Source of the DNA: Siphonodentalium dalli
Taxonomy: Eukaryota > Mollusca > Scaphopoda > Gadilida > Siphonodentaliidae
DNA: 64,000 nt
Reading direction: 5' to 3'
Assembly (NCBI GenBank): GCA_032622095.1
Contig: CP136062.1
Location: forward strand, 124,001 to 188,000
A program made the position numbers and the translations under genes. This document shows, piece after piece, positions 2,702 to 64,000 of this stretch. The notes under the pieces are model-generated. The model did no database searches and was not told the DNA's origin. It was given only the letters and a program-made list of their open reading frames with translations. The number at the start of each line of letters is the position of its first letter. The first letter of the stretch is position 1.

Positions 2702-2940
2702 TTCCACTATAAACATCTGATTTTCCACAAATCCCAAAAATAACGCCATTATACGCATGACGCATATATTTCTATAGCGCGTATGAATACATAACACACT
2801 AGTTAAAGTGGGTCATACAAAGAGAATTCATCAGAATAATTAAATAATATTGGTGATAAACTCATAAAGTGATCCGTTTTCTTTCTAAATTTAAATTTTT
2901 CTATGACAGATGAGCTTTGACATCACTTTTATGTTTGCAG

Positions 2941-3138
2941 GATTCAGTATTTTGATGACTGTTGGTGTGAAGATGATGACGATTTCTAATGTGGTTCCAG
3001 AGGAACTGAATGGATTAACTACGGGGCTGAGCGGTAACTCCGATGGTGATGCCACAAATGATTTCATAGACCCTGCTGGCAATGAGATACCAGATAACTC
3101 AACAGAACGCGATATATTCTATAGCTTCGGACAAAAAT
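2941..3138 (+). CDS. Exon 2: core of the VWD domain
   Basis: A 198-bp exon with acceptor TTTGCAG ending at 2940 and donor GTAAGT at 3139; phase 1 on both sides. Joined to exon 1 it reads through a Gly into FSILMTVGVKMMTIS. It then carries the diagnostic central VWD motif VVPEELNGLTTG followed by GLSGNSDGDATNDF and TERDIFYSFGQK. In the family this segment is the 'LPEEF..KT.GLLG..NG...DDF' stretch followed by '..FG..W'. The expected Trp after FGQK is supplied by the split codon T plus GG of exon 3, which strongly supports the exon join. No stop or frameshift. Extracellular by family; no membrane segment here. Confidence 0.85.
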
Positions 3139-7946: not shown

Positions 7947-8091
7947 ATCTACAACTCGTCCCCAGTCTATAGCGGAATTTACAAAACTCGTCCAGTAAAT
8001 TATGTCTTAACCTCGCCAAAGGCTCGGTCCAGACCTAATTTACTGGACTCGTTTTGTAAATTCCGCTATAAACTGGGGACTCGTTGTAGAT
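7947..8091. repeat. 145-bp near-perfect hairpin with CTCG motifs
   Basis: Arms of about 55 nt: ATCTACAACTCGTCCCCAGT pairs with ACTGGGGACTCGTTGTAGAT, and AATTTACAAAACTCGTCCAG with CTGGACTCGTTTTGTAAATT. The loop carries CCTCGCCAAAGGCTCGG, itself a small stem. It starts 5 bp after element B and is followed by another TTTATTACATGATCC at 8099, so it may have been inserted at, or carried by, an element B end. Confidence 0.85.
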
Positions 8092-8640
8092 CCTCTATTT
8101 ATTACATGATCCTACCCTTATGCATGCACACATCCCACAGTGAGCCCCACACAGATGGAAGCAAGCACTACAGAATGTCGCCTGCTCCGCTATATGTGGG
8201 GCTCTCTATGGGTTCTGGTGCCATACTACAGATCGTAGTCCACATGTCCTCAAGCCTGCAAATAGCGTGTCTGTCGTTTGCAGAATGAGGTCATCAGAGG
8301 GTGAATTTAGTGATGCTATCCCGCATAGCAGGCTAGCATCACTAAATTCACACTATGTGGACCTCATTCTGCTAAAGCCCTCAAATGCTATGGTAGATCT
8401 AGGATCAGATTGAAGTTCCCCAGTTGAAGTTGATGATGTTCACCGGCAACTTCACCCATTGGGCACCTCAATTATGAATTTAACTTCTGCAAATTAGGGG
8501 ATATAGAAACTTCCTAGAAGGGAAATGTAACTGAAACAATGTTAATTTGATACTATAGATACTTTACAGAAGATGAGACCTAAGCAGAATGAAGTCTCCA
8601 GAGGGTGAATTTGGTGATGCTAGCAGGCTTGGCCATACTA
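8092..8640. repeat. Mobile hairpin fragment and foldback copies
   Basis: 8125-8215 is a copy of the AACCCAT/CCCCACA hairpin family (CAGTGAGCCCCACACAGATG, then TATGTGGGGCTCTCTATGGG). 8258-8378 is a full GAATGAGGT foldback (TTTGCAGAATGAGGTCATCA with TGTGGACCTCATTCTGC). 8580-8632 is a half copy. The stretch between is the associated arm sequence with GTTCCCCAGTTGAAGTT and ACTTCCTAGAAGGGAAATG, also seen at 4160-4290. Confidence 0.7.
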
Positions 8641-8871
8641 AATGTATAAACACCAACTTTTCAACCTTTACTTGGCTAGTAAAATGTTTCAGTTGTCATC
8701 ATTAGAAAAGGCCGACTCATAACGGCTGATGTGCAACCTCTCATCGCCCATCAGCAACAGCCGTTATCACCACGACGATTTGCCTCACATCCACAATGCA
8801 TGCTGATCTACAAAGCTTTGTTTCCAATTAATGCACAGCACATGCTATAAAAGCTGTCTGTTTTTCAGTAC

Positions 8872-8972
8872 TGTAATTTGCAGAATGAGGTCCCCAGAGG
8901 GTAAATTTAGTGACGCAGTGGGCTAGTGTCACCAAATTAATTCTCTGGGGACCTCATTCTGCTTAGGCCCCA
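8872..8972. repeat. Foldback element, GAATGAGGT family (hairpin)
   Basis: AATTTGCAGAATGAGGTCCC pairs with GGGGACCTCATTCTGC across a centre of about 45 bp. The following associated sequence (to 9083) ends exactly where the exon 3 acceptor array begins. Confidence 0.75.
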
Positions 8973-9084
8973 TCTTCTGGAAAGTATCCATAGTCTCAAA
9001 TTAACATTGTTTTAGTTTCTTTTTCCCCTTCTGTTCAGTTTCTATATACCCTAATTTGCAGAAGATAAAATACATAATCGAGGT

Positions 9085-9939
9085 CTTCCAGGGTTGGTGA
9101 GCTCCGATGATACAGTATTCAGGTATCACACTCCCGTAGGGTGCCCCACACAGATTTGAGCAGACGACAGTCATCATTACAATGTTCTCTCTTCCAGGGT
9201 TGGTGAGCGCCTCTGATACAGTATTCAGGCATCACACTCCCGTAGGGTGCCCCACACAGATTCGAGCAGACGACAGTCATCAGTACATTGTTCTCTCTTC
9301 CAGGGTTGGTGAGCGCCTCTGATACAGTATTCAGGTATCACACTCCCGTAGGGTGCCCCACACGGAGTTTAGCAGACGACAGTCATCAGTACATTGTTCT
9401 CTCTTCCAGGGTTGGTGAGCGCCTCTGATACAGTATTCAGGTATCACACTCCAGTAGGGTGCCCCACACGGATTTTAGCAGACGACAGTCATCATTACAT
9501 TGTTCTCTCTTCCAGGGTTGGTGAGCTCCGATGATACAGTATTCAGGTATCACACTCCCGTAGGGTGCCCCACACAGATTTGAGCAGACGACAGTCATCA
9601 TTACATTGTTCTCTCTTCCAGGGTTGGTGAGCTCCGATGATACAGTATTCAGGTATCACACTCCCGTAGGGTGCCCCACACAGATTTGAGCAGACGACAG
9701 TCATCATCACATTGTTCTCTCTTCCAGGGTTGGTGAGCGCCTCTGATACAGTATTCAGGTATCACACTCCCGTAGGGTGCCCCACACAGATTTGAGCAGA
9801 CGACAGTCATCATTACATTGTTCTCTCTTCCAGGGTTGGTGAGCGCCTCTGATACAGTATTCAGGTATCACACTCCCGTAGGGTGCCCCACACAGATTTG
9901 AGCAGACGACAGTCATCATTACATTGTTCTCTCTTCCAG
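9085..9939 (+). repeat. 106-bp array repeating the exon 3 splice acceptor and exon edge
   Basis: Exon-edge starts fall at 9092, 9198, 9304, 9410, 9516, 9622, 9728 and 9834, with the real exon at 9940: exactly 106 bp apart each time. Each unit holds the TTCTCTCTTCCAG acceptor (shortened to TCTTCCAG in the first), about 35 bp of exon (GGTTGGTGAGC to AGGTATC), then intronic ACACTCCCGTAGGGTGCCCC and CAGACGACAGTCATCA. Four upstream copies share GAGCGCCTCTGATACAG and match each other rather than the exon; three (9092, 9516, 9622) keep the exon text GAGCTCCGATGATACAG. Reading the coding frame into an upstream copy usually reaches a TGA after CPTQI. The copy at 9304 has TTA in place of TGA. The intronic half resembles the mobile hairpin at 3297-3386. 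Confidence 0.92.
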
Positions 9940-10185
9940 GGTTGGTGAGCTCCGATGATACAGTATTCAGGTATCCCAATGGGAAAACACATGCCGAATT
10001 CACAAACACAAATTTCGAGCCAATCTTCCTTGACGAGGTTGATCCAACAACGCTTAACAACGCCAAGACAATCTGCGGAGATAACAATGAGTGCATACTC
10101 GATTACATCGCGACTGGCGATCAAACCGTAGCTGAGGAATCAAAGACGACGGGTGACAAAACTACTCAAGAAGATGCTATTCTCA
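9940..10185 (+). CDS. Exon 3: C-terminal half of the VWD domain
   Basis: A 246-bp exon. The acceptor CTCTCTTCCAG is the last of nine tandem copies; the donor is GTAAGT at 10186. Phase 1 on both sides; GG completes the Trp codon begun in exon 2. The product continues LVSSDDTVFRYPNGKTHAEF, then NFEPIFLDEV, then CGDNNECILDYIATGD. This is the family pattern of 'W.......LF.Y..G', '.F.P.F..' and 'C..N..C.FD...TG', with two Cys that pair in VWD domains. The last ~25 residues are polar and Thr/Lys/Asp-rich. ATG at 9924 is intronic and is not a start. I chose 9940 because only this copy continues into the conserved text; upstream acceptors run into stops. Confidence 0.85.
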
Positions 10186-10865
10186 GTAAGTTCCAACCGA
10201 AGCTGGTCCTATACGACAAGTGACAATACTACATGTATATGACATATGACGAGACTACTCAAGAGATGATATATTCTCTGTTAATTCTGACTGAAATTGC
10301 ATGGTCCTGTGCGAGATAAGGCCAATTGGATTAAATTATAAGATTATCATTACCTCTTCACATTATCGTTACTAAGACGACAGGCAACTCAAGAAGACGT
10401 AAGATTGTAATACGGCTGAAATGATTAATCCACTAATTAACAATTAATAAGATATTTGATTAATCGTCCCATTTCTTAGAACACAAACAATAAATTACAA
10501 CATAATATTTACCATTTTATTAAATTTTCGTCAATATACTACCGTAAAAACTGTCAAGTTGACACACAATTCTTTGTTATGGACGAGTATGGTGAGAAAT
10601 CGCAAGATATTCCTGATATATATGTCTTAATTTAAAGTTAATTCACATTAAAGGGATACTGTACCCAAAATGCTCTTATTGGGTTCTTTTGTCTATGAGT
10701 TGTAGAATAAGGTAACCAGATAACCAGATTTCCATTATTTGAAAGTCTGGTGAGTACGAAGTAATATTAGCAGATGAGCCGGAATGCGAAAATACCAATT
10801 GTCGTTGTTGAGTAATTTTTGAACAATTTTCAAGCAAATGTATCAAATATACTCATCGAGTCATC
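10186..10865. other. Intron 3, 5' part, nothing firm
   Basis: AT-rich intron. Just after the donor (about 10225-10290) lies a degraded echo of the exon's end (ACTACTCAAGA with GATGATATATTCT against ACTACTCAAGAAGATGCTAT), so the donor edge may also have been duplicated once. The AAGGGATACTGTACCC word at 10651 looks like part of a dispersed repeat but I cannot delimit it. Confidence 0.4.
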
Positions 10866-10879
10866 TATTATATTATATT

Positions 10880-11610
10880 TTGGAAGATCTGTCTGTCTGT
10901 CTATGTGTCTGTCTGTTTCCAATGAACTCGAAAACGGCCGAGCCGATTTCGATGAAACTTGGTATGTGGGGTTATTTTCGGCCGGGGAGTGACATAGGCC
11001 TATTAATTTGCCCGTGCGACGTGACATTGACCTTGAAATCGGGTCATTTCAATGTCAAACGCGCGAATATCACGGGTTTCGATGAAACTTGGTTTGTGGG
11101 GGTATTTTCGGCCGGGGAGTGACATAGGCCTATTAATTTGCCCGTGTGACGTGACATTGACCTTGAAATCGGGTCATTTCAAGGACAAACGCGCGAATAT
11201 CACGGGATTTCGATGAAACTTGGTATGTGGGGGTACTTTCGTATGGGGAGTCTCAAAAGACTATGAATTTGCCCGTGCGACATGACCTTGACCTTGAAAT
11301 CGGGTCAATTCAAGGTCAAATCGCCAATTTTGTTGGGATTTCGACGAAATTTTATACATAGGGTTACTTTTGTCCACTGAGTGTTTTGGACGGGTCAAAT
11401 CGTGACCCCGACCTGACCTTGACCTTAAAAATTATCAATTCAATGTCAAATCGGGTAAAACCGGATGGATTTCGACGGGCACGTTTGTCGGGTACTTTTG
11501 TCCGGGCAGTGTTTTGGACTGGTCAAATCGTCACCCCACTTGACCTTGACCTTCAAAATGGACAATTCAAGGTCAAAGCCCGGACGAAGTCGGGTCACCT
11601 TCTAGTTGTA
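10880..11610. repeat. 131-bp tandem repeat with TGACCTTGA motifs
   Basis: A short GTCTGTCTGTCT run is followed by about five units of 130-131 bp, marked by GATGAAACTTGG or its variants at 10951, 11081, 11212, 11343 and 11474. Each unit has CCTTGAAATCGGGTCA-like or CTTGACCTT-like words. The first units (GGCCGGGGAGTGACATAGGC) are very similar; the last two are more diverged. TGACCTTGA is a half-site for monomeric nuclear receptors (ERR/SF-1 type), but here it is more likely a property of the repeat than a regulatory cluster. Confidence 0.8.
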
Positions 11611-18096: not shown

Positions 18097-18103
18097 AGGA
18101 AAG

Positions 18104-18185
18104 GGTTAAATCATTTCAGTAACTCAATTCCAAATGTTTTCTCGGAGACCGTAGTTCTACATGCTACGATCGGTGATGAGAGTAC
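18104..18185 (+). repeat. Tandem duplicate of the exon 4 acceptor and exon edge
   Basis: 82 bp repeat the 83 bp at 18186-18268: TTAAATCATTTCAG acceptor followed by exon text (CCAAATGTTTTCTCGGAGAC, then ACATGCTACGATCGG). The upstream copy lacks one G at the splice junction. Using it would change the frame and reach TAG within about a dozen codons. GGTTA is present at the start of each copy (18104, 18186) and again at the downstream boundary (18269), which is the signature expected of duplication at a 5-bp microhomology. Confidence 0.9.
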
Positions 18186-18201
18186 GGTTAAATCATTTCA
18201 G

Positions 18202-18412
18202 GTAACTCGATTCCAAATGTTTTCTCGGAGACCGTAGTCCTACATGCTACGATCGGCGTTGAAAGTACGGTTACTTTCGTAGCTAACGACACTGATGCTG
18301 CCGACAATGTGACCTTACATATCGTACAACAACCCGCGACAGGTTTCACCTTTGACCTTTCAACTCTGGTCGCCACGTGGACGCCTGCTGATACCACTGC
18401 CGTATCTATACA
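18202..18412 (+). CDS. Exon 4: Ig/cadherin-like domain after the VWD
   Basis: A 211-bp exon with acceptor CATTTCAG ending at 18201 and donor GTAAGT at 18413; enters in phase 1, leaves in phase 2. GT completes a Ser codon from exon 3. The product has IPNVFSETVVLHATIGVEST, then ANDTDAADNVTL and FTFDLSTLVATWTPAD. That is the pattern of the small beta-sandwich (cadherin/Ig-like) domain that follows VWD in invertebrate MUC4/Mesh-like proteins: 'AxDxDxDNVTxxL', then 'FxxD...xWTP'. No Cys. The first bases after the acceptor (GTAACT) resemble a donor site, so a zero-length exon or recursive splice is conceivable, but the conserved protein text argues that the exon is used normally. Confidence 0.82.
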
Positions 18413-26041: not shown

Positions 26042-29000
26042 GATGGCAGCATGTAGGTTTTTATCATGATGCGATTCGAGATTTGACGCCTATTCGTCCG
26101 GATGGCATGCTGAGTCTATTATTATCATGATGCGATTCGAGATTTGACGCCTATTCGTCCGGATGGCATGCTGAGTCTATTATTATCATGATGCGATTCG
26201 AGATTTGACGCCTATTCGTCCGGATGGCACGCTGAGTCTATTATTATCATGATGCGATTCGAGATTTGACGCCTATTCGTCCGGATGGCATGCTGAGTCT
26301 ATTATTATCATGATGCGATTCGAGATTCGATGCCTATTCGTCCGAATGGCATGCTGAGTCTATTGTAGTCTCGTAAAAATGTCATTTCCTGGCAGCATCT
26401 AGGTTTTTATCATGATGCGATTCGAGATTGGATGCCTATTCCTCCTGATGGCATGCTGCGTCTATTATTATCATGATGCGATTCGAGATTAGATGCCTAT
26501 TCATCCGGATGGCATACTGAGTCTATTGTTATCATGATGCGATTCGAGATTCGATGCCTATTCGTCCGGATGGCATGCTGAGTCTATTATTATCATGATG
26601 CGATTCGAGATTCGATGCCTATTCGTCCGGATGGCATGCTGAGTCTATTATTATCATGATGCGACTCGAGATTTGATGCCTATTCGTCCGGATGGCATGC
26701 TGAGTCTATTATTATCATGATGCGATTAGAGATTCGATGCCTATTCGTCCGGATGGCATGCTGAGTCTATTATTATCATGATGCGATTCGAGATTCGATG
26801 CCTATTCGTCCGGATGGCATGCTGAGTCTATTATTATCATGATGCAATTCGAGATTCGATGCCTATTCGTCCGGATGGCATGCTGAGTCTATTATTATCA
26901 TGATGCGATTCGAGATTCGATGCCTATTCGTCCGGATATCATGCTGAGTCTATTATTATCATGATGCGATTCGAGATTCGATGCCTATTCGTCCGGATGG
27001 CATGCTGAGTCTATTGTTATCATGATGCGATTCGAGATTCGATGCCTATTCGTCCGGATGGCATGCTGAGTCTATTATTATCATGATGCGATTCGAGATT
27101 TGACGCCTATTCGTCCGGATGGCATGCTGAGTCTATTATTATCATGATGCGATTCGAGATTCGATGCCTATTCGTCCGAATGGCATGCTGAGTCTATTGT
27201 AGTCTCGTAAAAATGTCATTTCCTGGCAGCATCTAGGTTTTTATCATGATGCGATTCGAGATTGGATGCCTATTCCTCCTGATGGCATGCTGCGTCTATT
27301 ATTATCATGATGCGATTCGAGATTAGATGCCTATTCATCCGGATGGCATACTGAGTCTATTGTTATCATGATGCGATTCGAGATTCGATGCCTATTCGTC
27401 CGGATGGCATGCTGAGTCTATTATTATCATGATGCGATTCGAGATTCGATGCCTATTCGTCCGGATGGCATGCTGAGTCTATTATTATCATGATGCGATT
27501 CGAGATTTGATGCCTATTCGTCCGGATGGCATGTTGAGTCTATTATTATCATGATGCCATTAGAGATTCGATGCCTATTCGTCCGGATGGCATGCTGAGT
27601 CTATTATTATCATGATGCGATTCGAGATTCGATGCCTATTCGTCCGGATGGCATGCTGAGTCTATTATTATCATGATGCGATTCGAGATTCGATGCCTAT
27701 TCATCCGGATGGCATGCTGAGTCTATTATTATCATGATGCGATTCGAGATTCGATGCCTATTCGTCCGGATATCATGCTGAGTCTATTATTATCATGATG
27801 CGATTCGAGATTCGATGCCTATTCGTCCGGATGGCATGCTGAGTCTATTGTTATCATGATGCGATTCGAGATTCGATGCCTATTCGTCCGGATGGCATGC
27901 TGAGTCTATTATTATCATGATGCGATTCGAGATTCGATGCCTATTCGTCCGGATGGCATGCTGAGTCTATTATTATCATGATGCGATTTGAGATTCGATG
28001 CCTATTCGTCCGGATGGCATGCTGAGTCTATTATTATCATGATGCGATTCGAGATTCGATGCCTATTCGTCCGGATGGCATGCTGAGTCTATTGTTATCA
28101 TGATGCGATTCGAGATTCGATGCCTATTCGTGCGGATGGCATGCTGAGTCTATTATTATCATGATGCGATTCGAGATTCGATGCCTATTCGTCCGGATGG
28201 CATGCTGAGTCTATTGTAGTCTGGTCAAAATGTCATTTCCTGGCAGCATGTAGGTTTTTATCATGATGCGATTCGAGATTCGATGCCTATTCTTCCGGAT
28301 GGCATGCTGAGTCTATTGTATTCTCGTAAAAATGTTATTTCCTGGCAGCATGTAGGTTTTTATCATGATGCGATTCGAGATTCGATGCCTATTCTTCCGG
28401 ATGGCACGCTGAGTCTATTGTAGTCTCGTCAAAATGTCATTTCCTGGTAGCATGTAGGTTTTTATCATGATGCGATTCGAGATTTGATGCCTATTCCTCC
28501 GAATGGCATGCTGAGTTTATTGTAGTCTCGTAAAAATGTCATTTCCTGGCAGCATGTAGGTTTTTATCATGATGCGATTCGAGATTCGATGCCTATTCTT
28601 CCGGATGGCATGCTGAGTCTATTGTAGTCTCGTAAAAATGTCATTTCCTGGCAGCATGTATGTTTTTATCATGATGCGATTCGAGATTTGATGCCTATTC
28701 TTCCGGATGGCATGCTGAGTCTATTGTAGTCTCGTCAAAATGTCATTTCCTGGCAGCATGTAGGTTTTTATCATGATGCGATTCGAGATTCGATGCCTAT
28801 TCTTCCGGATGGCATGCTGAGTCTATTGTAGTCTCGTCAAAATGTCATTTCAATGGCAGCATCTAGGTTTTTATTATGATGCGTTCGAGATTTGATGCCT
28901 ATTCGTCCGGATGGCATGCTGAGTCTATTGTAGTCTCGTAAAAATGTTATTTCCTGGCAGCATGTATGTTTTTATCATGATGCGATTCGAGATTCGATGC

Positions 29001-51457: not shown

Positions 51458-54400
51458 GCTGGTTTCAGCTTGTTGTAATTGTGTTGCTGGGTTCAGCTTG
51501 CTGTAATTATGTTGCTTGGTTCAGCTTGTTGTAATTGTGTTGCTGGGTTCAGCTTGCTGTAATTGTGTTGCTGGTTTGAGCTTGCTGTGATTGTGTTGCT
51601 TGGTTCAGCTTGCTGTTATTGTGTTGCTGGGTTCAGCTTGCTGTAATTGTGTTGCTTGGTTCAGCTTGTTGTTATTGTGTTGCTGGGTTCAGCTTGCTGT
51701 GATTGTGTTGCTTGGTTCAGCTTGCTGTAATTGTGTTGCTGGGTTCAGCTTGCTGTAATTGTGTTGCTGGTTTGAGCTTGCTGTGATTGTGTTGCTGGGT
51801 TCAGCTTGCTGTTATTGTGTTGCTGGGTTCAGCTTGCTGTTATTGTGTTGCTGGGTTCAGCTTGCTGTTATTGTGTTGCTGGGTTCAGCTTGCTTTGATT
51901 GTGTTGCTGGGTTCAGCTTGCTGTAATTGTGTTGCTTGGTTCAGCTTGCTGTAATTGTGTTGCTGGGTTCAGCTTGCTCTAATTGTGTTGCTGGGTTCAG
52001 CTTGCTGTTATTGTTTTGCTGGGTTCAGCTTGCTGTAAGTGTGTTGCTTGGTTCAGCTTGTTGTAATTGTGCTGCTGTGTTCAGCTTGCTGTAATTGTGT
52101 TGCTGGGTTTAGCTTGCTGTAATTGTGTTGCTTGGTTCAGCTTGTTGTAATTGTGTTGCTGGGTTCAGCTTGCTGTGATTGTGTTGCTGGGTTCAGCTTG
52201 CTGTAATTGTGTTGCTTGTTCAGCTTGTTGTAATTGTGTAGCTGGGTTCAGCTTGCTGTGATTGTGTTGCTGGGTTCAGCTTGCTGTAATTGTGTTGCTT
52301 GGTTCAGCTTGTTGTAATTGTGTTGCTGTGTTCAGCTTGCTGTGATTGTGTTGCTGGGTTCAGCTTGTTGTAATTGTGTTGCTGGGTTCAGCTTGCTGTA
52401 ATTGTGTTGCTGGGTTCAGCTTGCTGTTATTGTTTTGCTGGGTTCAGCTTGCTGTAAGTGTGTTGCTTGGTTCAGCTTGTTGTAATTGTGTTGCTGGGTT
52501 CAGCTTGCTGTAATTGTGTTGCTGGGTTCAGCTTGCTGTAATTGTGTTGCTTGGTTCAACTTGTTGTAATTGTGTTGCTGTGTTCAGCTTGCTGTGATTG
52601 TGTTGCTGGGTTCAGCTTGCTGTAATTGTGTTGCTTGTTTCAGCTTGTTGTAATTGTGTTGCTGGGTTCAGCTTGCTGTAATTGTGTTGCTTGGTTCAGC
52701 TTGTTGTAATTGTGTTGCTGGGTTCAGCTTGCTGTAATTGTGTTGCTGGTTTCAGCTTGCTGTGATTGTGTTGCTTGGTTCAGCTTGCTGTTATTGTGTT
52801 GCTGGGTTTCAGCTTGCTGTAATTGTGTTGCTTGGTTCAGCTTGTTGTTATTGTGTTGCTGGGTTCAGCTTGATGTGATTGTGTTGCTTGGTTCAGCTTG
52901 TTGTAATTGTGTTGCTGGGTTCAGCTTGCTGTGATTGTGTTGCTGGGTTCAGCTTGCTGTAATTGTGTTGCTGGGTTCAGCTTGCTGTAATTGTGTTGCT
53001 GGTTTCAGCTTGCTGTGATTGTGTTGCTGGGTTCAGCTTGCTGTTATTGTGTTGCTGGGTTCAGCTTGCTGTAATTGTGTTGCTGGGTTCAGCTTGCTGT
53101 TATTGTGTTGCTGGGTTCAGCTTGCTTTGATTGTGTTGCTGGGTTCAGCTTGCTGTAATTGTGTTGCTTGGTTCAGCTTGCTGTAATTGTGTTGCTGGGT
53201 TCAGCTTGCTGTTATTGTGTTGCTGGGTTCAGCTTGCTGTAATTGTGTTGCTTGGTTCAGCTTGCTGTTATTGTGTTCAGCTTGCTGTAATTGTGTTGCT
53301 TGGTTCAGCTTGCTGTAATTGTGTTGCTGGGTTCAGCTGTCTGTTATTGTGTGCAGCTTGCTGTTATTGTGTGCAACTTGCTGTTATTGTGTGCAGCTTG
53401 CTGTTATTGTGTGCAGCTTGCTGTAATTATGTTGCTGTGTTCAGCTTGCTGTAATTGTGTTGCTGGGTTCAGCTTGCTGTTATTGTGTGCAGCTTGCTGT
53501 TATTGTGTGCAGCTTGCTGTAGTTGTGTTGCTTGGTTCAGCTTGCTGTTATTGTGTTGCTGGGTTCAGCTTGCTGTAATTGTGTTGCTGGGTTCAGCTTG
53601 CTGTTATTGTGTTGCTGGGTTCAGCTTGCTGTTATTGTGTTGCTGGGTTCAGCTTGCTGTTATTATGTTGCTGGGTTCAGCTTGCTGTAATTGTGTTGCT
53701 GGGTTTAGCTTGCTGTGATTGTGTGCAGCTTGCTGTAATTGTGTTGCTTGGTTCAGCTTGCTGTTATTGTGTTGCTGGGTTCAGCTTGCTGTAATTGTGT
53801 TGCTGGGTTCAGCTTGCTGTTATTGTGTTGCTGGGTTCAGCTTGCTGTTATTGTATTGCTGGGTTCAGCTTGATGTAATTGTGTTGCTGGGTTCAGCTTG
53901 CTGTGATTGTGTTGCTGGGTTCAGCTTGCTGTAATTGTGTTGCTGGGTTCAGCTCGCCGTAATTGTGTTCAGCTTGCTGTTATTGTGTGCAGCTTGCTGT
54001 AATTGTGTTCAACTCGCTGTTATTGTGTTCAGCTTGCTGTTATTGTGTTGCTGTGTTCAGCTTGCTGTAATTGTGCTGCTGGGTTCAGCTTGCTGTTATT
54101 GTGTTGCTGTGTGCAGCTTGCTGTAATTGTGTTGCTGGCTTCAGCTTGCTGTAATTGTGTTGCTGGGGCCAGCTTGCTGTTATTGTGTTACTTGTGTTGC
54201 TGGGTTCAGCTTGCTGTGATTGTGTTGCTAGGTTCAGCTGTCTGTAATTGTGTTGCTGGCTTCAGCTTGCTGTTATTGTGTTGCTGGGTTCAGCTTGCTG
54301 TAATTGTGTTGCTGGGTTCAGCTTGCTGTTATTGTGTTGCTGGGTTCAGCTTGCTGTTATTGTGTTGCTGGGTTCAGCTTGCTGTAATTGTGTTGCTGGG

Positions 54401-57400
54401 TTCAGCTTGCTGTAATTGTGTTGCTTGGTTCAGCTTGCTCTAATTGTGTTGCTGGGTTCAGCTTGCTGTAATTGTGTTGCTGGGTTCAGCTTGCTGTTAT
54501 TGTGTTGCTGGGTTCAGCTTGCTGTAATTGTGTTGCTTGGTTCAGCTTGTTGTAATTGTGTTGCTGGGTTCAGCTTTCTGTAATTGTGTTGCTGGGTTCA
54601 GCTTGCTGTAATTGTGTTGCTTGGTTCAGCTTGTTGTAATTGTGTTGCTGTGTTCAGCTTGCTGTGATTGTGTTGCTGGGTTCAGCTTGCTGTAATTGTG
54701 TTGCTTGGTTCAGCTTGTTGTAATTGTTTTGCTAGGTTCAACTTGCTGTGATTGTGTTGCTGGGTTCAGCTTGCTGTAATTGTGTTGCTTGGTTCAGCTT
54801 GTTGTAATTGTGTTGCTGTATTCAGCTTGCTGTGATTGTGTTGCTGGGTTCAGCTTGCTGTAATTGTGTTGCTGGGTTCAGCTTGTTGTAATTTTGTTGG
54901 TGGTTTCAGCTTGCTGTAATTGTGTTGCTGGTTTCAGCTTGTTGTAATTGTGTTGCTGGGTTCAGCTTGCTGTAATTATGTTGCTTGGTTCAGCTTGTTG
55001 TAATTGTGTTGCTGGGTTCAGCTTGCTGTAATTGTGTTGCTGGTTTGAGCTTGCTGTGATTGTGTTGCTTGGTTCAGCTTGCTGTTATTGTGTTGCTGGG
55101 TTCAGCTTGCTGTAATTGTGTTGCTTGGTTCAGCTTGTTGTTATTGTGTTGCTGGGTTCAGCTTGCTGTGATTGTGTTGCTTGGTTCAGCTTGCTGTAAT
55201 TGTGTTGCTGGGTTCAGCTTGCTGTAATTGTGTTGCTGGTTTGAGCTTGCTGTGATTGTGTTGCTGGGTTCAGCTTGCTGTTATTGTGTTGCTGGGTTCA
55301 GCTTGCTGTTATTGTGTTGCTGGGTTCAGCTTGCTGTTATTGTGTTGCTGGGTTCAGCTTGCTTTGATTGTGTTGCTGGGTTCAGCTTGCTGTAATTGTG
55401 TTGCTTGGTTCAGCTTGCTGTAATTGTGTTGCTGGGTTCAGCTTGCTGTAATTGTGTTGCTGGGTTCAGCTTGCTGTTATTGTTTTGCTGGGTTCAGCTT
55501 GCTGTAAGTGTGTTGCTTGGTTCAGCTTGTTGTAATTGTGCTGCTGTGTTCAGCTTGCTGTAATTGTGTTGCTGGGTTTAGCTTGCTGTAATTGTGTTGC
55601 TTGGTTCAGCTTGTTGTAATTGTGTTGCTGGGTTCAGCTTGCTGTGATTGTGTTGCTGGGTTCAGCTTGCTGTAATTGTGTTGCTTGTTCAGCTTGTTGT
55701 AATTGTGTAGCTGGGTTCAGCTTGCTGTGATTGTGTTGCTGGGTTCAGCTTGCTGTAATTGTGTTGCTTGGTTCAGCTTGTTGTAATTGTGTTGCTGTGT
55801 TCAGCTTGCTGTGATTGTGTTGCTGGGTTCAGCTTGTTGTAATTGTGTTGCTGGGTTCAGCTTGCTGTAATTGTGTTGCTGGGTTCAGCTTGCTGTTATT
55901 GTTTTGCTGGGTTCAGCTTGCTGTAAGTGTGTTGCTTGGTTCAGCTTGTTGTAATTGTGTTGCTGGGTTCAGCTTGCTGTAATTGTGTTGCTGGGTTCAG
56001 CTTGCTGTAATTGTGTTGCTTGGTTCAACTTGTTGTAATTGTGTTGCTGTGTTCAGCTTGCTGTGATTGTGTTGCTGGGTTCAGCTTGCTGTAATTGTGT
56101 TGCTTGTTTCAGCTTGTTGTAATTGTGTTGCTGGGTTCAGCTTGCTGTAATTGTGTTGCTTGGTTCAGCTTGTTGTAATTGTGTTGCTGGGTTCAGCTTG
56201 CTGTAATTGTGTTGCTGGTTTCAGCTTGCTGTGATTGTGTTGCTTGGTTCAGCTTGCTGTTATTGTGTTGCTGGGTTTCAGCTTGCTGTAATTGTGTTGC
56301 TTGGTTCAGCTTGTTGTTATTGTGTTGCTGGGTTCAGCTTGATGTGATTGTGTTGCTTGGTTCAGCTTGTTGTAATTGTGTTGCTGGGTTCAGCTTGCTG
56401 TGATTGTGTTGCTGGGTTCAGCTTGCTGTAATTGTGTTGCTGGGTTCAGCTTGCTGTAATTGTGTTGCTGGTTTCAGCTTGCTGTGATTGTGTTGCTGGG
56501 TTCAGCTTGCTGTTATTGTGTTGCTGGGTTCAGCTTGCTGTAATTGTGTTGCTGGGTTCAGCTTGCTGTTATTGTGTTGCTGGGTTCAGCTTGCTTTGAT
56601 TGTGTTGCTGGGTTCAGCTTGCTGTAATTGTGTTGCTTGGTTCAGCTTGCTGTAATTGTGTTGCTGGGTTCAGCTTGCTGTTATTGTGTTGCTGGGTTCA
56701 GCTTGCTGTAATTGTGTTGCTTGGTTCAGCTTGCTGTTATTGTGTTCAGCTTGCTGTAATTGTGTTGCTTGGTTCAGCTTGCTGTAATTGTGTTGCTGGG
56801 TTCAGCTGTCTGTTATTGTGTGCAGCTTGCTGTTATTGTGTGCAACTTGCTGTTATTGTGTGCAGCTTGCTGTTATTGTGTGCAGCTTGCTGTAATTATG
56901 TTGCTGTGTTCAGCTTGCTGTAATTGTGTTGCTGGGTTCAGCTTGCTGTTATTGTGTGCAGCTTGCTGTTATTGTGTGCAGCTTGCTGTAGTTGTGTTGC
57001 TTGGTTCAGCTTGCTGTTATTGTGTTGCTGGGTTCAGCTTGCTGTAATTGTGTTGCTGGGTTCAGCTTGCTGTTATTGTGTTGCTGGGTTCAGCTTGCTG
57101 TTATTGTGTTGCTGGGTTCAGCTTGCTGTTATTATGTTGCTGGGTTCAGCTTGCTGTAATTGTGTTGCTGGGTTTAGCTTGCTGTGATTGTGTGCAGCTT
57201 GCTGTAATTGTGTTGCTTGGTTCAGCTTGCTGTTATTGTGTTGCTGGGTTCAGCTTGCTGTAATTGTGTTGCTGGGTTCAGCTTGCTGTTATTGTGTTGC
57301 TGGGTTCAGCTTGCTGTTATTGTATTGCTGGGTTCAGCTTGATGTAATTGTGTTGCTGGGTTCAGCTTGCTGTGATTGTGTTGCTGGGTTCAGCTTGCTG

Positions 57401-60400
57401 TAATTGTGTTGCTGGGTTCAGCTCGCCGTAATTGTGTTCAGCTTGCTGTTATTGTGTGCAGCTTGCTGTAATTGTGTTCAACTCGCTGTTATTGTGTTCA
57501 GCTTGCTGTTATTGTGTTGCTGTGTTCAGCTTGCTGTAATTGTGCTGCTGGGTTCAGCTTGCTGTTATTGTGTTGCTGTGTGCAGCTTGCTGTAATTGTG
57601 TTGCTGGCTTCAGCTTGCTGTAATTGTGTTGCTGGGGCCAGCTTGCTGTTATTGTGTTACTTGTGTTGCTGGGTTCAGCTTGCTGTGATTGTGTTGCTAG
57701 GTTCAGCTGTCTGTAATTGTGTTGCTGGCTTCAGCTTGCTGTTATTGTGTTGCTGGGTTCAGCTTGCTGTAATTGTGTTGCTGGGTTCAGCTTGCTGTTA
57801 TTGTGTTGCTGGGTTCAGCTTGCTGTTATTGTGTTGCTGGGTTCAGCTTGCTGTAATTGTGTTGCTGGGTTCAGCTTGCTGTAATTGTGTTGCTTGGTTC
57901 AGCTTGCTCTAATTGTGTTGCTGGGTTCAGCTTGCTGTAATTGTGTTGCTGGGTTCAGCTTGCTGTTATTGTGTTGCTGGGTTCAGCTTGCTGTAATTGT
58001 GTTGCTTGGTTCAGCTTGTTGTAATTGTGTTGCTGGGTTCAGCTTTCTGTAATTGTGTTGCTGGGTTCAGCTTGCTGTAATTGTGTTGCTTGGTTCAGCT
58101 TGTTGTAATTGTGTTGCTGGGTTCAGCTTGCTGTGATTGTGTTGCTGGGTTCAGGTTGCTGTAATTGTGTTGCTTGGTTCAGCTTGTTGTAATTGTGTTG
58201 CTGGGTTCAGCTTGCTGTAATTGTGTTGCTGGTTTCAGCTTGCTGTGACTGTGTTGCTGGGTTCAGCTTGCTGTTATTGTGTTGCTGGGTTCAGCTTTCT
58301 GTAATTGTGTTGCTGGGTTCAGCTTGCTGTAATTGTGTTGCTGGTTTCAGCTTGCTGTGATTGTGTTGCTGGGTTCAGCTTGATGTTATTGTGTTGCTGG
58401 GTACAGCTTGCTGTAATTGTGTTGCTTGGTTCAGCTTGCTGTTATTGTGTTGCTGGGTTCAGCTTGCTGTAATTTTGTTGCTTGGGTTAGCTTTCTGTTA
58501 TTGTGTTGCTGGGTTAGCTTTCTGTTATTGTGTTGCTGGGTTCAGCTTGCTGTTATTGTGTTGCTGGGTTCAGCATGCTGTAATTGTGTTGCTGGGTTCA
58601 GCTTGCTGTTATTGTGTGCAGCTTGCTGTTATTGTGTGCAACTTGCTGTTATTGTGTGCAGCTTGCTGTTATTGTGTGCAGCTTGCTGTAATTGTGTTGC
58701 TGGGTTCAGCTTGCTGTAATTGTGTTGCTGGGTTCAGCTTCCTGTTATTGTGTGCAGCTTGCTGTTATTGTGTGCAGCTTGCTGTTATTGTGTGCAGCTT
58801 GCTGTAATTGTGTTGCTTGGTTCAGCTTGCTGTTATTGTGTTGCTGGGTTCAGCTTGCTGTAATTGTGTTGCTGTGTTCAGCTTGCTGTTATTGTGTTGC
58901 TGGGTTCAGCTTGCTGTTATTGTGTTGCTGGGTTCAGATTGCTGTAATTGTGTTGCTGTGTTCAGCTTGCTGTGATTGTGTGCAGCTTGCTGTAATTGTG
59001 TTGCTTGGTTCAGCTTGCTGTTATTGTGTTGCTGGGTTCAGCTTGCTGTAATTGTGTTGCTGGGTTCAGCTTGCTTTGATTGTGTTGCTGGGTTCAGCTT
59101 GCTGTAATTGTGTTGCTTGGTTCAGCGTGTTGTAATTGTGTTGCTGGGTTCAGCTTGCTGTGATTGTGTTGCTGGGTTCAGCATGCTGTTATTGTGTTGC
59201 TGGGTTCAGATTTCTGTAATTGTGTTGCTTGGTTCAGCTTGTTGTAATTGTGTTGCTGGGTTCAGCTTGCTGTAATTGTGTTGCTTGGTTCAGCTTGTTG
59301 TTATTGTGTTGCTGGGTTCAGCTTGCTGTGATTGTGTTGCTGGGTTCAGCTTGCTGTAATTGTGTTGCTGGGTTCAGCTTGCTGTGATTGTGTTGCTGGG
59401 TTCAGCTTGTTGTAATTATGTTGCTGGGTTCAGCTTGTTGTAATTGTGTTGCTGGTTTCAGCTTGCTGTAATTGTGTTGCTGGGTTCATCTTGTTGTAAT
59501 TGTGTTGCTGGGTTCAATTTGCTGTAATTGTGTTTCTGGGTTCAGCTTGCTGTTATTGTGTTGCTGGGTTCGGCTTGCTGTTATTGTGTTGCTGGGTTCA
59601 GCTTGCTTTGATTGTGTTGCTGGGTTCAGCTTGCTGTAATTGTGTTGCTTGGTTCAGCTTGTTGTAATTGTGTTGCTGGTTTCAGCTTGCTGTTATTGTG
59701 CTGCTGGGTTCAGCTTGCTGTAATTGTGTTGCTTGGTTCAGCTTGTTGTAATTGTGTTGCTGTGTTCAGCTTGTTGTAATTGTGTTGCTGGGTTCAGCTT
59801 GTTGTAATTGTGTTGCTGGTTTCAGCTTGTTGTAATTGTGTTGCTGGGTTCAGCTTGGTGTAATTGTGTTGCTTGGTTCAGCTTGCTGTGATTGTGTTGC
59901 TGGGTTCAGCTTCCTGTGATTGTGTTGCTGGGTTCAGCTTGATGTAATTGTGTTGCTGGGTTCAGCTTGCTGTTATTGTATTGCTGGGTTCAGCTTGCTT
60001 TGATTGTGTTGCTGGGTTCAGCTTGCTGTAATTGTGTTGCTTGGTTCAGCTTGCTGTAATTGTGTTGCTTGGTTCAGCTTGCTGTAATTGTGTTGCTGGG
60101 TTCAGCTTGCTGTAATTGTGTTGCTGGGTTCAGCTTGCTGTAATTGTGTTGCTGGGTTCAGCTTGCTGTAATTGTGTTGCTGGGTTCAGCTTGCTGTAAT
60201 TGTGTTGCTTGGTTCAGCTTGTTGTAATTGTGTTGCTGGGTACAGCTTGCTGTAATTGTGTTGCTGGGTTCAGCTTGCTGTTATTGTGTTGCTGGGTTCA
60301 GCTTGCTTTGATTGTGTTGCTGGGTTCAGCTTGCTGTAATTGTGTTGCTTGGTTCAGCTTGCTGTAATTGTGTTGCTGGGTTCAGCTTGCTGTAATTGTG

Positions 60401-63400
60401 TTGCTGGGTTCAGCTTGCTGTTATTGTTTTGCTGGGTTCAGCTTGCTGTAAGTGTGTTGCTTGGTTCAGCTTGTTGTAATTGTGTTGCTGTGTTCAGCTT
60501 GCTGTAATTGTGTTGCTGGGTTCAGCTTGCTGTAATTGTGTTGCTTGGTTCAGCTTGTTGTAATTGTGTTGCTGGGTTCAGCTTGCTGTGATTGTGTTGC
60601 TGGGTTCAGCTTGCTGTAATTGTGTTGCTTGGTTCAGCTTGTTGTAATTGTGTAGCTGGGTTCAGCTTGCTGTGATTGTGTTGCTGGGTTCAGCTTGCTG
60701 TAATTGTGTTGCTTGGTTCAGCTTGTTGTAATTGTGTTGCTGTGTTCAGCTTGCTGTGATTGTGTTGCTGGGTTCAGCTTGTTGTAATTGTGTTGCTGGG
60801 TTCAGCTTGCTGTAATTGTGTTGCTGGGTTCAGCTTGCTGTAATTGTTTTGCTGGGTTCAGCTTGCTGTAAGTGTGTTGCTTGGTTCAGCTTGTTGTAAT
60901 TGTGTTGCTGGGTTCAGCTTGCTGTAATTGTGTTGCTGGGTTCAGCTTGCTGTAATTGTGTTGCTTGGTTCAGCTTGTTGTAATTGTGTTGCTGTGTTCA
61001 GCTTGCTGTGATTGTGTTGCTGGGTTCAGCTTGCTGTAATTGTGTTGCTTGGTTCAGCTTGTTGTAATTGTTTTGCTAGGTTCAACTTGCTGTGATTGTG
61101 TTGCTGGGTTCAGCTTGCTGTAATTGTGTTGCTTGGTTCAGCTTGTTGTAATTGTGTTGCTGTATTCAGCTTGCTGTGATTGTGTTGCTGGGTTCAGCTT
61201 GCTGTAATTGTGTTGCTGGGTTCAGCTTGTTGTAATTTTGTTGGTGGTTTCAGCTTGCTGTAATTGTGTTGCTGGTTTCAGCTTGTTGTAATTGTGTTGC
61301 TGGGTTCAGCTTGCTGTAATTATGTTGCTTGGTTCAGCTTGTTGTAATTGTGTTGCTGGGTTCAGCTTGCTGTAATTGTGTTGCTGGTTTGAGCTTGCTG
61401 TGATTGTGTTGCTTGGTTCAGCTTGCTGTTATTGTGTTGCTGGGTTCAGCTTGCTGTAATTGTGTTGCTTGGTTCAGCTTGTTGTTATTGTGTTGCTGGG
61501 TTCAGCTTGCTGTGATTGTGTTGCTTGGTTCAGCTTGCTGTAATTGTGTTGCTGGGTTCAGCTTGCTGTAATTGTGTTGCTGGTTTGAGCTTGCTGTGAT
61601 TGTGTTGCTGGGTTCAGCTTGCTGTTATTGTGTTGCTGGGTTCAGCTTGCTGTTATTGTGTTGCTGGGTTCAGCTTGCTGTTATTGTGTTGCTGGGTTCA
61701 GCTTGCTTTGATTGTGTTGCTGGGTTCAGCTTGCTGTAATTGTGTTGCTTGGTTCAGCTTGCTGTAATTGTGTTGCTGGGTTCAGCTTGCTGTAATTGTG
61801 TTGCTGGGTTCAGCTTGCTGTTATTGTTTTGCTGGGTTCAGCTTGCTGTAAGTGTGTTGCTTGGTTCAGCTTGTTGTAATTGTGCTGCTGTGTTCAGCTT
61901 GCTGTAATTGTGTTGCTGGGTTTAGCTTGCTGTAATTGTGTTGCTTGGTTCAGCTTGTTGTAATTGTGTTGCTGGGTTCAGCTTGCTGTGATTGTGTTGC
62001 TGGGTTCAGCTTGCTGTAATTGTGTTGCTTGTTCAGCTTGTTGTAATTGTGTAGCTGGGTTCAGCTTGCTGTGATTGTGTTGCTGGGTTCAGCTTGCTGT
62101 AATTGTGTTGCTTGGTTCAGCTTGTTGTAATTGTGTTGCTGTGTTCAGCTTGCTGTGATTGTGTTGCTGGGTTCAGCTTGTTGTAATTGTGTTGCTGGGT
62201 TCAGCTTGCTGTAATTGTGTTGCTGGGTTCAGCTTGCTGTTATTGTTTTGCTGGGTTCAGCTTGCTGTAAGTGTGTTGCTTGGTTCAGCTTGTTGTAATT
62301 GTGTTGCTGGGTTCAGCTTGCTGTAATTGTGTTGCTGGGTTCAGCTTGCTGTAATTGTGTTGCTTGGTTCAACTTGTTGTAATTGTGTTGCTGTGTTCAG
62401 CTTGCTGTGATTGTGTTGCTGGGTTCAGCTTGCTGTAATTGTGTTGCTTGTTTCAGCTTGTTGTAATTGTGTTGCTGGGTTCAGCTTGCTGTAATTGTGT
62501 TGCTTGGTTCAGCTTGTTGTAATTGTGTTGCTGGGTTCAGCTTGCTGTAATTGTGTTGCTGGTTTCAGCTTGCTGTGATTGTGTTGCTTGGTTCAGCTTG
62601 CTGTTATTGTGTTGCTGGGTTTCAGCTTGCTGTAATTGTGTTGCTTGGTTCAGCTTGTTGTTATTGTGTTGCTGGGTTCAGCTTGATGTGATTGTGTTGC
62701 TTGGTTCAGCTTGTTGTAATTGTGTTGCTGGGTTCAGCTTGCTGTGATTGTGTTGCTGGGTTCAGCTTGCTGTAATTGTGTTGCTGGGTTCAGCTTGCTG
62801 TAATTGTGTTGCTGGTTTCAGCTTGCTGTGATTGTGTTGCTGGGTTCAGCTTGCTGTTATTGTGTTGCTGGGTTCAGCTTGCTGTAATTGTGTTGCTGGG
62901 TTCAGCTTGCTGTTATTGTGTTGCTGGGTTCAGCTTGCTTTGATTGTGTTGCTGGGTTCAGCTTGCTGTAATTGTGTTGCTTGGTTCAGCTTGCTGTAAT
63001 TGTGTTGCTGGGTTCAGCTTGCTGTTATTGTGTTGCTGGGTTCAGCTTGCTGTAATTGTGTTGCTTGGTTCAGCTTGCTGTTATTGTGTTCAGCTTGCTG
63101 TAATTGTGTTGCTTGGTTCAGCTTGCTGTAATTGTGTTGCTGGGTTCAGCTGTCTGTTATTGTGTGCAGCTTGCTGTTATTGTGTGCAACTTGCTGTTAT
63201 TGTGTGCAGCTTGCTGTTATTGTGTGCAGCTTGCTGTAATTATGTTGCTGTGTTCAGCTTGCTGTAATTGTGTTGCTGGGTTCAGCTTGCTGTTATTGTG
63301 TGCAGCTTGCTGTTATTGTGTGCAGCTTGCTGTAGTTGTGTTGCTTGGTTCAGCTTGCTGTTATTGTGTTGCTGGGTTCAGCTTGCTGTAATTGTGTTGC

Positions 63401-64000
63401 TGGGTTCAGCTTGCTGTTATTGTGTTGCTGGGTTCAGCTTGCTGTTATTGTGTTGCTGGGTTCAGCTTGCTGTTATTATGTTGCTGGGTTCAGCTTGCTG
63501 TAATTGTGTTGCTGGGTTTAGCTTGCTGTGATTGTGTGCAGCTTGCTGTAATTGTGTTGCTTGGTTCAGCTTGCTGTTATTGTGTTGCTGGGTTCAGCTT
63601 GCTGTAATTGTGTTGCTGGGTTCAGCTTGCTGTTATTGTGTTGCTGGGTTCAGCTTGCTGTTATTGTATTGCTGGGTTCAGCTTGATGTAATTGTGTTGC
63701 TGGGTTCAGCTTGCTGTGATTGTGTTGCTGGGTTCAGCTTGCTGTAATTGTGTTGCTGGGTTCAGCTCGCCGTAATTGTGTTCAGCTTGCTGTTATTGTG
63801 TGCAGCTTGCTGTAATTGTGTTCAACTCGCTGTTATTGTGTTCAGCTTGCTGTTATTGTGTTGCTGTGTTCAGCTTGCTGTAATTGTGCTGCTGGGTTCA
63901 GCTTGCTGTTATTGTGTTGCTGTGTGCAGCTTGCTGTAATTGTGTTGCTGGCTTCAGCTTGCTGTAATTGTGTTGCTGGGGCCAGCTTGCTGTTATTGTG
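51458..64000 (+). repeat. 28-bp T/G-rich satellite with a 3,469-bp higher-order repeat
   Basis: The unit is GTTCAGCTTGCTGTAATTGT plus GTTGCTGG (28 bp; 21 of 28 bases are T or G on this strand). Variants: TGTAATT, TGTTATT or TGTGATT; GCTTGC or GCTTGT; CTGGG or CTTGG; and a shortened ~20-bp unit (ATTGTGTGCAGCTTGCTGTT) in clusters near 53340, 56810, 58610 and 63160. 51458-54926 is repeated at 54927-58119 with offset 3,469 and nearly no change, and again from 61271 to the window end (offset 6,344 from copy 2). 58120-61270 is a differently ordered segment. The many short hydrophobic Cys/Leu/Val frames are artefacts of the repeat. Confidence 0.97.

Follow-up and report, generated by a model that had tools for sequence, protein, structure and literature searches.

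The window, i.e. the whole stretch of DNA analysed here (64,000 nucleotides of Siphonodentalium dalli contig CP136062.1, positions 124,001 to 188,000), carries a mucin-4-like gene. The features of this gene given below lie on the plus strand. By Pfam, the exon pair considered here matches VWD (E 0.001, below the cut-off) and C8-3_MUC4 (E 9.9e-10). The preceding exon of the pair (2931–3138, with a provisional 5′ end) encodes the VWD part and has an open frame and an identical donor in all four paralogues described below. It ends in ...AAA T/GTAAGTG, leaving one base of a codon to be completed at the acceptor, and is followed by a 6.8-kb intron. The next exon (9940–10185; 246 nt, phase 1-1, donor GTAAGT at 10186) encodes the end of the VWD region and the C8-3_MUC4 domain. 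This corrects the initial annotation, which described it as a VWD-coding exon.

The start of this exon is the last copy in a tandem array (9084–9975) with the period of 106 bp, comprised of nine copies of an AG with ∼35 bp of exon and eight 66-bp cores between them. The TRF score of the array is 1616, compared to the maximum of 56 in 50 mononucleotide shuffles of positions 8001–11000. The exact 106-bp spacing of the nine acceptors, noted initially, was reproduced: the first exonic base falls at 9092 + 106n, from 9092 to 9940. The eight full units are 92.5–100% identical to each other. The repeat unit spans the intron-exon boundary, and the real boundary is one, terminal, copy of it. Each unit is a hybrid of the 3′ splice site with ∼35 bp of the exon and a 66-bp core akin to a dispersed 92-bp satellite. 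In the first core (9124–9189), as in the others, the 3′ end forms the pyrimidine tract of the next acceptor; the tract reads ATGTTCTCTC in the first core and TTGTTCTCTC in the remaining seven. The first exon-start copy (9092–9123) has no satellite-derived tract before its acceptor: the purine-richer stretch upstream of it contains 9 pyrimidines out of 17, while the other eight acceptors have 13–14. Hence, the pyrimidine tract is repeated along with eight acceptors, but not with all nine as had been assumed.

Only the acceptor at 9940 keeps the protein frame, with 82 of 82 codons open, in agreement with the initial claim that the last copy alone joins the conserved protein. The use of any upstream acceptor would yield an exon of 352–1094 nt that stops early, after 22 codons in five cases and after 41 in three, as 106 is not a multiple of three. 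The first TGA is missing not only at 9304, which had been taken for the sole exception, but also at 9198 and 9410; still, all eight upstream choices run into a stop. At each acceptor of the array, T/GG encodes Trp, since the preceding exon terminates in T. In large introns, splice sites closest to each other across the exon are reported to be preferred, a rule derived in other animals (PMC9225289), and this preference favours 9940. Most likely, the spliceosome pairs 9940 with the exon's own donor 246 nt away, although upstream acceptors may have some leaky use. We also considered masking of the upstream acceptors by RNA structure and rejected it: a crude RNA fold gave no sign of structure hiding these sites, and the AG at 9940 was the least open (0.09 vs. 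0.42–0.50).

A search with the exon yielded four close copies and eight weaker matches, of which seven were used and one, at C8:125848027 (E 4.71), was left out. The four gene copies are at C2:133 kb (the window), C2:14.08 Mb (inverted), C7:612 kb, and C7:723 kb. In this order, they contain nine, eight, four, and three exon-start copies with an AG, preceded directly by the satellite tract in eight, seven, three, and one case, respectively. Hence, the array length is unstable between close copies, as seen by comparison of paralogous loci: nine and eight units in two ∼97%-identical loci, four and three at C7. The region duplicated on C2 spans at least from 90.3 to 142 kb, with the inverted partners at 14.07–14.16 Mb. 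All seven remoter homologous exons start with AG/GG, indicating a common position and phase of the intron. In none of them did TRF and self-comparison reveal an exon-start repeat within the 550–760 bp examined upstream; for L026 and L027, where the match starts inside the exon, only the TRF result is relevant. TRF arrays were found in one of the seven (L023), farther upstream.

We searched the genome (2.23 Gb, nine contigs) with two array units. Among at least 196 matches, the ten best fall in the four loci holding copies of the gene, and most of the others listed are arrays on C1, C2, C5, C6, C7, C8, and C9 with 70–76% identity. Among the matches listed, the dispersed arrays match the query from positions 32–59 onward, mostly from position 40. 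In 17 dispersed loci that we examined, the TRF period is mostly 91–92 bp (range 91–108), with ∼2 to 16 repeats. The window unit at 9728 and a dispersed 92-bp unit share 59 of 69 bases in an alignment that ends at TTCTCTCT. This means that the intronic half of the unit is satellite, the exonic half comes from the host gene, and the tract of eight acceptors is satellite-derived. The 92-bp unit, entered by hand, is palindromic and folds as a long hairpin (−36 kcal/mol).

Transposable elements of the piggyBac type, a possible source of the satellite, duplicate a TTAA target and have CCC...GGG ends. Ten of the 17 dispersed arrays terminate in GGGTTAA at the right edge, and the same letters also occur inside the unit in several arrays. 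GGGTTAA is also found ∼10–35 bp upstream of an acceptor in L023, L025, and at 18103–18109 of the window, two of these three being paralogues; in 29 VWD loci its frequency is near random (14 vs. 11.5 expected). The window further contains two very large satellites, at 27241–51357 (61-bp unit, ∼393 copies) and 51458–64000 (28-bp unit, ∼449 copies), and arrays with the period of at least 20 occupy 68% of it.

The C7 copies retain apparently older forms. At C7:612 kb, there is one further old unit 2.7 kb upstream that has lost its AG. The old units of L002 and L003, both C7 copies, align to the 92-bp satellite through its right end (67 of 80 and 73 of 88 identical bases). In the old unit at C7:723 kb, the right end of the satellite is followed by another tract, CATTCTTTTATTACAG, presumably the original one. 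By-eye comparison shows the 106-bp unit to be ∼34 bp shorter than the older form. As the older C7 units retain more of the satellite, the 106-bp unit is best read as a deletion product that expanded later. L003 also has 182 extra bp (344–525) where the window has the first exon-start copy, which may be a deletion in the window or an insertion in L003; in L003, the first exon-start copy is preceded by an inverted, not direct, fragment of the satellite.

In the exon body (without the first 36 nt), C7b differs from each other copy by 10 synonymous changes per ∼44.5 sites and 5–7 nonsynonymous changes per ∼156 sites (pS 0.22 vs. pN 0.03–0.045). Among the window, C2b, and C7a, there are no synonymous and one or two nonsynonymous changes, too few to be informative about constraint since the array growth. 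In the preceding exon, comparisons of C2 copies with C7b give 4–5 synonymous and 8 nonsynonymous changes, and those with C7a, 6–7 and 6–8, respectively. Judging from these counts, the gene was constrained in the past, with the array possibly younger than most of the changes counted. Between 9940–10185 and C7:612384–612629 (C7a), the body differs at 2 of 213 bases, none synonymous, while the exon before it differs by 7 synonymous changes per 45 sites; gene conversion between C2 and C7 at this exon is possible.

Within the 15 units of the two C2 arrays, 9 of 38 columns are variable in the exon-like part, 9 of 48 in the core, and 3 of 20 in the tract and AG, so this column comparison shows no excess conservation of the acceptor. 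Two linked haplotypes are intermingled along the C2 arrays. In particular, the first codons are AGCTCCGAT (Ser-Ser-Asp) in six units and AGCGCCTCT (Ser-Ala-Ser) in nine, one of them with an extra change; the real exon has AGCTCCGAT in both C2 copies and AGCGCCTCT in both C7 copies. This leaves a small chance that the array serves as a reservoir of alternative exon starts, which unequal exchange or conversion could swap without breaking the gene. If so, a satellite would drive coding change at the edge of a domain.

The gene contains a second acceptor-spanning duplication (18104–18273; two copies of 82–83 bp, with the AGs ending at 18119 and 18201), followed by an exon without a Pfam match (18202–18412). 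It is present in two copies in both C2 paralogues and is single in both C7 paralogues. At its junction, GGTTA is common, by eye, to the exon and the upstream sequence in the C2 copies; as the C7 exons read GATTA, this identity may have resulted from the duplication instead of causing it. In addition, the 9940–10185 exon has an old, degenerate copy of its 3′ end; this duplication occupies 10154–10314 (10154–10216 vs. 10247–10314), and its donor copy has decayed.

In order to see how often repeats capture splice boundaries, we considered 29 VWD-domain loci, among which L057–L059 and L062–L064 score identically and are probably copies. Donor-spanning repeats were found in two loci, L046 and L056. 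They lie at C8:79429538–79432068 and represent two VWD exons ∼2 kb apart, probably from one gene; L046 is a simple duplication, and L056 has ∼7.7 repeats of a 70-bp unit starting at the exon end. Each method had gaps, as L046 had no TRF report and L056 was overlooked by self-comparison. In L054, L067, L068, and L069, TRF arrays lie near the open frame, all of them, by eye, intronic and short of the likely splice site. TRF arrays occupy 4587 of 84,100 flank bases (5.5%), and hence ∼3 of 58 boundaries would be captured, compared to the two observed; this is a rough calculation with estimated exon ends. By this rough count, boundary capture in the 29 loci matches the array density without an excess. 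The array cover in the first 26 kb of the window is 22.7%. Self-comparison of 46 exon loci detected repeats in nine (L046, L068, L033, L034, L036, L025, L001, L002, and L003); L068, L025, and the 26-bp repeats of L033, L034, and L036 were left out of the boundary count as exon-internal pieces. Loci L030, L040, and L041 were not used. A second sample, of 25 kinase loci, was dropped, as all of them belong to one C2 cluster: C2:149826753–150592734 contains dozens of protein-kinase frames on one strand, most of 281 codons and with equal score.

Taken together, these observations make it quite probable that the array is a minisatellite of the type called mirage in lancelets, which arose when a satellite came to lie beside an acceptor, passed through duplication, deletion, and expansion, and has been tolerated with 9940 in use. 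In this scenario, a piece of the dispersed palindromic 92-bp satellite would have come to adjoin the 3′ splice site. A tandem duplication would then have copied the satellite together with the pyrimidine tract, the AG, and the first 35 bp of the exon. A deletion of ∼34 bp would have fused the AG region with the TTGTTCTCTCT of the satellite itself, creating the 106-bp unit, and the latter would have multiplied by unequal exchange or slippage. Given the inverted satellite fragment in L003, the array may instead have been founded by an insertion or by some rearrangement of a more complex kind, and a long target-site duplication was considered as well; we prefer a tandem duplication because of the clean one-to-two step of the second array between C7 and C2. 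The array can be tolerated, as every unit contains an acceptor and an exon start, and the last copy always meets the exon body.

The initial annotation proposed that the locus may act as a splicing-noise or dosage switch. Here, the upstream acceptors would compete with the real one and divert transcripts to decayed mRNA with early stops, so that more copies would mean less protein. All eight upstream choices do stop early, seven of the upstream acceptors have nearly the tract of the real one, and the copy number varies among the paralogues. However, the array was not found in the seven remoter homologues within the upstream sequence examined, the acceptor is unprotected within the units, the exon body is constrained relative to C7b (possibly from before the expansion), and lancelet mirages have been reported to leave splicing undisturbed (PMC3087553, PMC3902484). 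This function is therefore unlikely; neither the unit columns nor the boundary-capture count in the 29 VWD loci show a sign of selection for a switch. The tandem-acceptor anatomy, the productive last copy, and the variation of copy number among the four paralogues stand independently of it. Past constraint on the gene, the unprotected acceptor, the preference for the sites nearest across the exon, and the reported splicing of lancelet mirages make neutral tolerance the best reading, and hence the array is most likely a neutral accident passed over by splicing.

Micro-exons or recursive (stepwise) splicing along the array, also suggested initially, are hardly credible. The idea comes from the donor-like GTGAGC, whose place six bases past every AG was noted correctly: GGTTG lies between the two in each of the nine copies of the window, which puts GTGAGC at bases 6–11. 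However, this arrangement never juxtaposes AG and GT to form a ratchet site, and a micro-exon would measure an implausible 5 nt. Moreover, in the real exon the hexamer is coding sequence (Val-Ser); it is broken in three paralogous units (GTGGGC in C2b6, GTGATC in C7a1, GTGCGC in C7b1) and is missing from the first 24 nt of all seven remoter exons. An assembly artefact is scarcely more plausible. Tandem repeats misassemble easily, and the two C2 copies, being inverted and ∼96–98% alike over the longest matching pieces, could be misplaced haplotypes; by contrast, the array is shorter than 1 kb, its units are distinguished by point changes, and arrays of differing lengths and flanks are present at four loci.

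Mirage minisatellites have been described in the lancelet genes for Adh3, globins BflGb6 and BflGb9, troponin C, and PGBD5, with six and three units in two haplotypes and with RT-PCR said to give regular splicing (PMC3087553, PMC3902484). Among the titles and abstract openings listed for this design and for duplication-born introns, we recognised no other accounts of mirages. The present array adds a case in an apparently different animal, whose genome of 2.23 Gb is larger than those of lancelets (near 0.5 Gb). It is also a naturally occurring test of splice-site choice: with acceptors almost identical in sequence, the spliceosome has only their position to go by. As in the lancelet, tandem copies of the minisatellite type cover an intron-exon boundary, although the lancelet ones occur at both acceptors and donors, and the unit number varies, between haplotypes or assemblies there and between paralogues here. 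The second acceptor duplication in the host gene resembles lancelet PGBD5, which has two mirage sites. While the anatomy and instability are already known from lancelets, the satellite-supplied pyrimidine tract is a feature of this array: lancelet units are 10–160 bp long, and the descriptions consulted do not state their source, whereas here the intronic half comes from a dispersed satellite. The mechanism generating mirages has been called unclear (PMC3087553). Unlike the lancelet cases as described, the paralogues here keep apparent earlier stages, likely leading from a satellite by an acceptor through duplication and a tract-donating deletion to expansion. Intron gain by tandem genomic duplication (PMC4974935; the model is also discussed in PMC3087553) similarly involves a duplicated segment that contains splice signals, but in our case no new intron has appeared, and the copies remain within an existing one. 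TERT VNTR6-1, an intronic VNTR linked to splicing, likewise consists of variable repeats within an intron; its summary does not mention copied splice sites, which the array in S. dalli has in every unit.
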